64,000 bases of DNA from Amycolatopsis sp. NBC_01480 (lineage in GTDB: Bacteria; Actinomycetota; Actinomycetes; Mycobacteriales; Pseudonocardiaceae): positions 2,480,001 through 2,544,000 of the forward strand of contig NZ_CP109442.1 of the NCBI RefSeq assembly GCF_036227205.1. Direction: 5' to 3'. The position numbers were made by a program, and so were the translations under genes. Positions within the stretch are counted from its first letter, which is position 1. Each line of letters opens with the position of its first letter. The notes beneath the pieces were generated by a model. That model saw nothing but the letters and a program-made list of their open reading frames with translations. It ran no database searches and had not been told where the DNA came from. This document shows positions 5,541 to 7,231 of this stretch, one piece after another.

Positions 5541-6032
5541 ATGGTTTTCAAGGTCGGAGAGACCGTCGTCTACCCGCACCACGGTGCCGCACTCATCGAA
5601 GCCATCGAAACCCGCGTGATCAAGGGCGAGGAGAAGAAGTACCTCGTCCTCAAAGTCGCGCAAGGGGATCTTACGGTTCGCGTGCCTGCTGACAACGCCG
5701 AGATCGTCGGTGTGCGTGACGTCGTCGGGCAAGAAGGACTGGACAAGGTTTTCGACGTACTGCGTGCTCCGCACACCGAAGAGCCCACGAACTGGTCTCG
5801 TCGGTACAAGGCCAACCTCGAGAAGCTCGCCTCCGGCGATGTGAACAAGGTGGCCGAAGTGGTGCGCGACCTCTGGCGGCGAGAGAAGGACCGCGGACTT
5901 TCAGCCGGTGAAAAGCGGATGCTGGCGAAGGCGCGGCAAATTCTGGTCAGCGAGCTCGCGCTCGCGGAGGGCACCGACGAGGACAAAGCGGAAGTCCTCC
6001 TCGACGAGGTTCTGGAAACCGCGACGGTCTGA
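5541..6032 (+). CDS. carD: CarD family transcription factor
   Basis: The 163-residue protein nearly equals M. tuberculosis CarD (162). Its N-terminal RNA polymerase interaction domain begins [20 protein letters not shown]. The C-terminal helical DNA-binding domain carries [17 protein letters not shown] and the conserved [22 protein letters not shown]. CarD binds the polymerase beta subunit and stabilises open complexes at many promoters, including rRNA promoters. The start is fixed by an upstream gaggacac ribosome site. It precedes ispD and ispF in the same direction, the standard actinobacterial order. Confidence 0.97.
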
Positions 6033-6098: not shown

Positions 6099-6761
6099 AT
6101 GAGCCAGCTGGTGCAGAGCGTCGTGTTCGTGACTGTCGCACACCGGACCGCGGATCCAGAGGCAGCTCTGGCCGTGGTGAACGGTGAAGTTCTCCTCGCG
6201 CACACCGTGCGGGGGCTGCTCGGCACACCGGAGATCGATCTGGTGGCCGTGGTGGCCCCCGAGCGGTGTGCCGCTGCGTTTTCGGGGGCTCTCGGGGATC
6301 TGCCGGCCCGCTGCCGGATCGTCCCCGGCCCCTCGCTCCGGCCGGCTTTCGCCGCCGTTGAGCCAGAACTTTCCCCGGACGCGGTTGTGCTGGTGCACGA
6401 CGCGCTCCGGTCGTTCACTCCGCAAGGGACGATCCGTGACGTACTGGGCGCGGCCCGGGCCGGCCGCGTCGTCGTCGTCCCCGTTCTGCCCATGGCGGAC
6501 ACCGTGAAGTCCACCGATGAGGCGCGGCTGATCACCGGCACCGTCGACCGCGACGGGCTCCGCACCGCGCAGACCCCGGTCGGCTTCCCGCTGCCGGAGT
6601 TCCGGGCCGCGCTCGGGACGGACGACATCTTCGACGCCGCCGTCCTGGCCGGCGCCGCCACCGTCCCCGGCCATCCCGACGCGATGCGCGTCGCGAGTGC
6701 TTTCGAACTCACCCTCGCCGAGGCCCTGGTGGCCCTGCACGGTCACGAGGAGCCCCTGTGA
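6099..6761 (+). CDS. ispD: IspD-like 4-diphosphocytidyl-2-C-methyl-D-erythritol synthase homologue, active-site motifs missing
   Basis: The 220 residues occupy the conserved carD-ispD-ispF position and keep parts of the IspD fold: [26 protein letters not shown], and [13 protein letters not shown]. The N-terminal CTP-binding loop, in the family PAAGSGxR...PKxF with essential Arg and Lys, is replaced by [20 protein letters not shown] and is about five residues shorter. The GGxxRxxSV motif is reduced to [11 protein letters not shown]. The C-terminal KITxPxDL motif reads MRVASAFEL, losing the substrate Lys. The frame is intact, with no stop or frameshift, and its stop overlaps the ispF GTG. It may be inactive, regulatory or changed in function. 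A second IspD would then be expected elsewhere in the genome. Confidence 0.75.
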
Positions 6762-7231
6762 ACGACCTGCGCGTCGGCAACGGCGTCGACGTCCACCCGA
6801 TCGAACCCGGCCGCGAGTGCTGGATGGCCGGGCTGTTGTGGCCGGGCGTCGACGGCTGCGCGGGCCACTCCGACGGCGACGTCGCGGCCCACGCGCTGTG
6901 CGACGCGCTGCTGTCCGCCGCCGGGCTCGGCGACCTCGGCGCGGTCTTCGGCACCGGCGACCCGCGGATGGACGGCGCGCACGGCGCCGACATGCTCGCG
7001 GAGGTCCGCGCGCTCGTCGAAGCGGACGGGTGGCGCGTGGCGAACGCGACGGTGCAGATCATCGGCAACCGCCCGCGCGTCGGGAAACGGCGTGACGAGG
7101 CGCAGAAGGTGCTCGGCGAGGCCGTCGGCGGTCCGGTGAGCGTCGCCGGCACGACGTCCGACGGGCTGGGCCTCACCGGCCGCGGCGAGGGCGTCGCGGC
7201 GGTGGCGACGGCACTCCTGGTCCGGCCTTGA
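6758..7231 (+). CDS. ispF: 2-C-methyl-D-erythritol 2,4-cyclodiphosphate synthase
   Basis: The 157 residues are typical for IspF, which forms the cyclic diphosphate in the MEP isoprenoid pathway. Metal ligands are in GVDVHP (Asp and His near residues 9 and 11) and GHSDGDV (His near 40). The C-terminal signature [17 protein letters not shown] is complete. The GTG start overlaps the ispD stop by four bases, so translation is coupled. Unlike its IspD neighbour, all key residues of this protein appear intact. Confidence 0.96.

Follow-up and report, generated by a model that had tools for sequence, protein, structure and literature searches.

The IspD of this genome is, in our view, very probably an obligate heteromer, in which the gene studied here encodes a catalytically dead subunit that would donate the arm and a second protein, IspD2, would be the CTP-binding subunit. 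We infer the physical complex, its stoichiometry, its activity and the action of the arm in trans from sequence comparisons. The proposal is supported by the reciprocal loss of residues in the two proteins, their co-occurrence, their neighbourhood in distant genomes, the carD-ispF loci that are without ispD and the purifying selection on the eroded gene. The gene lies in a window (meaning here the whole stretch of 64,000 nucleotides analysed, C1:2480001-2544000) of a 10.1-Mb genome, G000, and the nearest named relatives of its protein are from Amycolatopsis.

Residues are numbered as in E. coli IspD, unless a number of the window protein is given. In the literature found, IspD is described as a homodimer. 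In the E. coli structure of Richard et al. (2001/2004), T140 and R157 reportedly reach the active site of the neighbouring subunit. Passages of PMC11796317 describe a beta-arm that hooks the subunits together and an active site placed at the interface, and a passage on the B. subtilis enzyme states that most of the interface is made by the arm (PMC5099578). According to parts of PMC11770629, the site for methylerythritol phosphate (MEP) is contained in the arm, R20 and K27 work on the triphosphate, and a role in MEP binding seems to fall to R157 and K213; the strictly conserved residues listed in those parts are R20, K27, D106, R109 and K213, a list without R157 and T140. The residue of Francisella IspD that corresponds to T140 touches the substrate, and an excerpt of PMC3111433 reports that T141D cuts the activity by 75% and T141E abolishes it fully.

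The features of the locus are collected in the table. The frame is open from ATG to TGA (220 aa) and its TGA at 6759-6761 overlaps the GTG start of ispF at 6758, so the sequence-only reading was right in describing an intact frame in the carD-ispD-ispF position with a stop overlapping ispF. This operon position is the same as that of the intact actinobacterial IspD gene, and the other eroded loci of the family also have carD and ispF as flanking genes. The protein matches the Pfam IspD family PF01128 with 98 bits (gathering score, 27); the match spans profile positions 22-219 and leaves the first 21 unmatched. It falls about 100 bits short of the cut-off of the NCBI equivalog TIGR00453 (80.4 vs 181.3 bits) and is also below that of the ribitol-5-phosphate (TarI) model NF001183 (31.1 vs 166). 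Judged by these scores and the residues below, the protein is a member of the IspD family by descent but fails its defining catalytic features, and it should not be named an IspD enzyme.

Table. Features of the carD-ispD-ispF locus, in positions of the window.
Feature	Position	Strand	Remark
carD	5541..6032	+	first gene of the carD-ispD-ispF neighbourhood; also adjoins eroded or intact IspD1 at other loci read
eroded IspD1	6099..6761	+	proposed as the catalytically dead arm donor in a two-subunit IspD
CTP-binding loop stretch (GxGxR...K27)	6120..6179	+	motif missing
HDALR (H105, D106, R109 of E. coli)	6396..6410	+	retained
beta-arm segment; T135, K137, D150 and R151 are the equivalents of T140, K142, D156 and R157	6474..6578	+	proposed functional core; invariant columns
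Arg197 replacing catalytic Lys213	6687..6689	+	
ispF	6758..7231	+	overlaps the stop of eroded IspD1

Aligned to E. coli IspD, the window protein is without the GxGxR loop, R20, K27, G82 and K213, which agrees with the earlier claim of an IspD homologue that has lost its CTP-binding and catalytic motifs. The comparison with M. tuberculosis IspD that went with this claim is covered here by alignments to PDB chains 2xwn, 3okr and 3q7u, which begin past the loop. The protein retains P166 and furthermore H105, D106, R109, D139, T140, K142, D156, R157 and T165, nine residues that the sequence-only reading had missed. The losses are shared by its relatives: they are common to all seven genomes of the genus examined and to the 120 homologues listed (out of 367), in which R20 and K27 are found in none and the K213 position is Arg in 119. 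Therefore, the window protein is neither a sequencing error nor a chance case. The same 120 homologues, whose database names include IspD and 'IspD/TarI family', have T140 and R157 in 120 and K142 in 119 cases.

The pattern recurs among the 47 eroded carD-linked IspD1 proteins of the family, where T140, K142, D156, R157 and R109 are each found in 47/47, while R20 is kept in three, K27 in one and K213 in two, with Arg at the K213 position in 38; in many lineages the N-terminal part is missing or shorter. The refuting case named earlier, in which a Lys and an Arg from another segment fill the CTP site, finds no support, because before R109 no Lys or Arg column is at least 98.5% identical across the 120 homologues listed, nor does the set of 47 eroded proteins have an invariant one there. 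The window protein would thus be unable to bind CTP in the known way.

A PF01128-family search of the whole genome gave six places. The best match is IspD2 (158 bits, C1:5934064-5934729, at 5.93 Mb), at a distance of 3.4 Mb from the window gene (97 bits) and adjoining a cobT-type gene (PF02277). The other four are weak, two of them above the family cut-off yet confined to positions 3-127 and 4-120, as would be expected of other nucleotidyltransferases. IspD2 has the loop GAGTR...NK, GGATRQ, HDAAR and KIT; nevertheless, where the intact IspDs of the family have DTVK it reads DDVV, and its R157 position is without an arginine. It stays below the cut-offs of TIGR00453 (169.9 vs 181.3 bits) and of the ribitol-5-phosphate model NF001183 (78.4 vs 166 bits). 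Among the 52 IspD2 proteins of the family, R20, K27, G82, R85, S88, D106, R109, T189 and K213 are all present in 52/52, whereas T140 and K142 are found in none, D156 in one and R157 in five. By these counts, IspD2 is a protein that keeps the catalytic features of IspD and fails its arm features. An AlphaFold2 model of IspD2 alone has a pLDDT of 92.2 and a pTM of 0.90, and short strands remain at the place of the arm.

Where the sequence-only reading had expected a functional IspD elsewhere in the genome, there is indeed a second IspD with CTP motifs, but it is not an ordinary complete one, being without T140, K142 and R157, and for the latter reason we rejected gene loss followed by replacement by a normal second ispD. 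A mevalonate bypass was also rejected, since the genome, which has DXR and IspG, gave no HMG-CoA reductase match.

Regarding the family, we surveyed 150 genomes, of which 98 had a best IspD match of at least 193 bits and one (G085), in which an intact IspD1 is split across contig ends, was omitted from the class counts; the remaining 51 had an eroded carD-linked IspD1. After seven double-fetched loci were discarded, we aligned 47 eroded and 4 part-eroded IspD1, 52 IspD2 and 31 intact IspD1, these last being the 30 best-scoring ones plus that of G050, from 99 genomes with an intact IspD1. Both residue sets, that of the CTP site and that of the arm, are present in 31/31 of the intact proteins. 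Out of 64 columns invariant in these, eight (113, 127, T140, K142, T154, D156, R157 and 161) are retained in at least 95% of the eroded IspD1 and in less than 20% of IspD2, and 17, including G16, G18, R20, K27, G82, R85, T189, K213 and T215, remain in 95% or more of IspD2 but in less than 50% of the eroded IspD1. Six of the eight columns kept by eroded IspD1 fall within positions 134-166, against one of the 17 kept by IspD2 (Fisher P = 0.001). The arm stretch has 33 residues in 31/31 intact and 32-33 in 47/47 eroded IspD1; in IspD2 its length is variable (26-35 residues).

The two proteins also occur together. IspD2 was found in 51/51 family genomes with an eroded or part-eroded IspD1, and in only one of the 80 genomes searched among the 99 with an intact IspD1, at most the best 35 first-look candidates per genome being scored. 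At the level of sequence, a dead paralogue and an impaired catalytic paralogue are thus conserved together. The one exception is G050 (L123, L124), where IspD2 stands beside an intact IspD1; this may be the state from which the erosion began, or else an IspD2 that uses the arm of the intact IspD1.

In order to read the arm residues we used as a control 48 ordinary IspDs from other phyla, which, together with 32 IspD2, made up the best 80 loci of a named-genome scan. R20, K27, R109 and R157 are each present in 48/48, T140 in 39 (8 Ala, 1 Ser) and K142 in 36. The eight with Ala at T140 (L268, L273, L274, L276, L277, L285, L286 and L288) are mostly of the Rhodobacteraceae type and have at the K142 position Trp in seven cases and Leu in one. 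T140 and K142 are dispensable in this ordinary group, so that their loss by itself does not necessarily disable an IspD. Judged by this control, R157 is the telling arm residue, as the only one that is universal there; it is found in 5/52, 1/31 and 1/32 of the three IspD2 sets and in 47/47, 30/30 and 22/22 of the eroded partners.

Beyond the family, a profile built from the 52 IspD2 was run against 296 genomes of the class and gave matches above 200 bits in 33 non-family genomes, belonging to five further family groups, and a partner was present in 33/33. In 30 of the 31 distant loci read, the partner lies beside IspD2, tail to tail with a gap of less than 0.4 kb; G215 and G228 were assessed separately, the partner in G215 being adjacent too, and the partners in G173 and G228 lie within 1.8 kb. 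The 32 IspD2 of the named-genome scan come from Amycolatopsis, Saccharomonospora, Pseudonocardia, Kocuria, Brachybacterium, Mycolicibacterium and other mycobacteria, Kineosporia, Nocardioides, Marmoricola, unclassified actinobacteria, and one Chloroflexi and one Ktedonobacterales metagenome genome. Six of them belong to the family of the window; among the other 26, which the partner counts cover, 22 have a partner within 5 kb, and in Kocuria rosea and Kineosporia sp. R_H_3 the partner is found at about 11 kb on the same contig. A partner was not found in the assemblies of the metagenome genomes L227 and L239 (Ktedonobacterales), which may be incomplete; their IspD2-like proteins are without T140 and R157. 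In L238, the Chloroflexi metagenome genome CF_12, an IspD2-like gene and an eroded partner stand in tandem on one strand, outside Actinomycetota.

The residues follow the same division in these genomes. Partners outside the family have T or S at T140 in 30/30, 22/22 and 5/5 cases, R157 in the same 30, 22 and 5/5, and K142 in 30, 22 and 4/5, the exception being the partner of G173. Elsewhere the partners have lost more: R109 is lost in 24 of 30 distant partners, the Kocuria partner is without D106, and in Kineosporia babensis barely more than the arm is recognisable. The non-family IspD2 have R20, K27 and K213 in 31/31 and 32/32 and T140 in none; these two sets share species (e.g. L216, G358), and 48 of 52 arm segments are distinct.

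Regarding the genomic place of the pair, the loci of Nocardioides, Brachybacterium and Kineosporia babensis have the eroded gene still beside carD, with IspD2 convergent to it. One genus (f2/g45) from the same order has carD directly followed by ispF, and the pair elsewhere, in 8/8 of its genomes that bear the pair, while G206, the one control read from this genus without an IspD2 match, has an intact ispD between the two; by resemblance to the named Mycolicibacterium loci, the genus is probably a mycobacterial one. Of four small genomes from group f23, three likewise have carD abutting ispF, and in the fourth there is no carD in the stretch read. Since carD and ispF are without an ispD between them where the pair is elsewhere, the pair appears to stand in for the canonical IspD. 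Quite probably, judging from the sequences compared, a hitherto unrecognised two-subunit MEP cytidylyltransferase is widespread in Actinomycetota and present in at least one Chloroflexota metagenome genome, made of a CTP-binding subunit that has no working arm and an arm subunit that has no nucleotide site; it would have arisen or spread repeatedly and would replace the canonical enzyme as a two-gene unit, with an arm subunit that may erode to little more than the arm, as in Kineosporia babensis.

Of 18 genomes tested for the isoprenoid routes, 15 had a match to DXR and one had a match to HMG-CoA reductase. G051 has an HMG-CoA reductase match (G051:C77:135981-137081, 331 bits) and also DXR, and perhaps has both routes. 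G214, G247 and G338 (f23, 1.4-2.2 Mb) gave no match to DXR PF02670 despite having IspF and the IspD pair; they may use another reductoisomerase. In L179 and L182 (group f24) the PF01128 domain that they share with IspD is fused to a short-chain dehydrogenase, probably as a ribitol-type cytidylyltransferase/reductase; these fusions muddle the IspD counts and stand outside the pair.

To account for the eroded state, a tree of carD, IspF and CysS requires seven changes or more, and its strongly supported branches force at least three for the fully eroded label; this tree has SH-aLRT support only, the branch of L077 is very long, and 27 rows are less than half filled. Genera g5 and g29 contain both intact and eroded states. 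The part-eroded IspD1 have lost different residues (R20 and K27 in G092, K27 and K213 in G016, K213 in G129, only the T189-D190 stretch in G145), and all four retain T140, K142 and R157 and come from genomes with IspD2. From the tree and these genes, we read that the erosion of IspD1 is an event that happened more than once.

The eroded gene is under purifying selection. Among seven genomes of the genus of the window, the median dN/dS was 0.32 for eroded IspD1, 0.18 for IspD2 and 0.11 for ispF, and within eroded IspD1 the pN/pS was 0.22 in the arm vs 0.52 elsewhere. A pseudogene or a frameshift was rejected because of this dN/dS and the residues retained in the 120 listed homologues. Furthermore, the protein distances of IspD1 and IspD2 correlate beyond those of ispF (partial r 0.65, 0/2000 permutations), a correlation that carries shared ancestry and is possibly inflated.

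According to the mechanism we propose, the window gene would encode one half of a two-subunit MEP cytidylyltransferase. IspD2 would supply the CTP loop, R20, K27, D106, T189 and K213, and bind and activate CTP, but alone it would be short of the arm contacts for MEP; the eroded IspD1 of the carD-ispF operon would donate the arm, with T140, K142, D156 and R157 holding methylerythritol phosphate. Each IspD1-IspD2 heteromer would have one complete active site per pair. The homodimeric IspDs (E. coli YgbP, M. smegmatis 2xwl/2xwm, B. subtilis 5ddt/5hs2) are of the same family, and IspD1 and IspD2 jointly hold all the active-site residues compared, as those do; the difference is that the homodimer is one self-pairing protein with both the CTP site and the arm, whereas here each of two paralogues is without one of them. 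Some observations go against the heteromer: an Arg is aligned at R157 in 5/52 IspD2, L227 and L239 have an IspD2 with no partner found, G050 has IspD2 together with an intact IspD1, and R109 is lost in the 24 distant partners mentioned.

The main alternative is an IspD2 that is self-sufficient, as a homodimer with a different MEP site, the eroded IspD1 being then a regulator (e.g. an MEP-sensing allosteric partner) or a scaffold of IspF. IspD2 does retain all the CTP-site residues compared and has a confidently predicted fold (pLDDT 92, pTM 0.90), some ordinary IspDs are without T140 and K142, and in two metagenome genomes no partner was found; a regulator that binds MEP would retain the arm residues too. 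However, R157, universal in the 48 ordinary IspDs, is lost in 47/52, 30/31 and 31/32 IspD2, a partner bearing R157 accompanies IspD2 in all 33 non-family genomes, and the residues best kept by the partner are those that contact the substrate in the shared active site. We therefore consider this alternative unlikely. The sequence-only reading had thought of a regulator, a scaffold or a changed substrate; the window protein keeps its arm residues while most of the rest erodes, and therefore a subunit that completes the active site fits better.

Another reading, in which the eroded IspD1 is a relic in decay whose frame stays open only for translational coupling to ispF after IspD2 took over, would agree with its overlap with ispF and with the N-terminal loss or shortening in many lineages. 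We give it very little credit, since the dN/dS of the eroded gene is 0.32 and lower in the arm, T140 and R157 are kept throughout the listed homologues, and elsewhere the partner is convergent with IspD2 and not upstream of ispF. It is just as improbable that the pair, or IspD2, has moved to another polyol phosphate in the manner of TarI, leaving MEP to an unrecognised enzyme. Some public records do call relatives of the window protein 'IspD/TarI family', but IspD2 reaches only 78 bits against the cut-off of 166 of the ribitol-5-phosphate model, ispD is missing from carD-ispF where the pair sits elsewhere, and the genome has no other full-length IspD match, but DXR and IspG are present in it and HMG-CoA reductase gave no match.

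The heteromer that we propose has parallels in other enzymes. The nearest precedent that we found for its way of working is the deoxyhypusine synthase of trypanosomatids, of which passages in PMC3663545 describe an impaired DHSc and a dead DHSp, both conserved, as here; the dead DHSp raises the activity 3000-fold. It is a different enzyme, a heterotetramer, whose complex and activation are demonstrated in that source, whereas here we infer them. The AdoMet decarboxylase of T. brucei with its prozyme is likewise an enzyme with a catalytically dead paralogous partner, but according to a part of PMC5201418 the prozyme relieves autoinhibition, whereas we propose here the donation of active-site residues. 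A two-subunit IspD was described in none of the literature matches listed; most subscription papers are outside that search, so this is not proof of novelty.

As an essential enzyme, IspD serves as a target of antibiotics, antimalarials and herbicides. If it is split as proposed, the pair would be a natural separation-of-function experiment, telling which residues come from which subunit, and would give mechanistic studies a heteromer that has just one active site, as well as being a clean case of the repeated evolution of an obligate complex out of a homodimer. The entries named IspD or 'IspD/TarI family' among the 120 listed homologues would then be non-catalytic subunits, and isoprenoid engineering in these antibiotic producers would require both genes.
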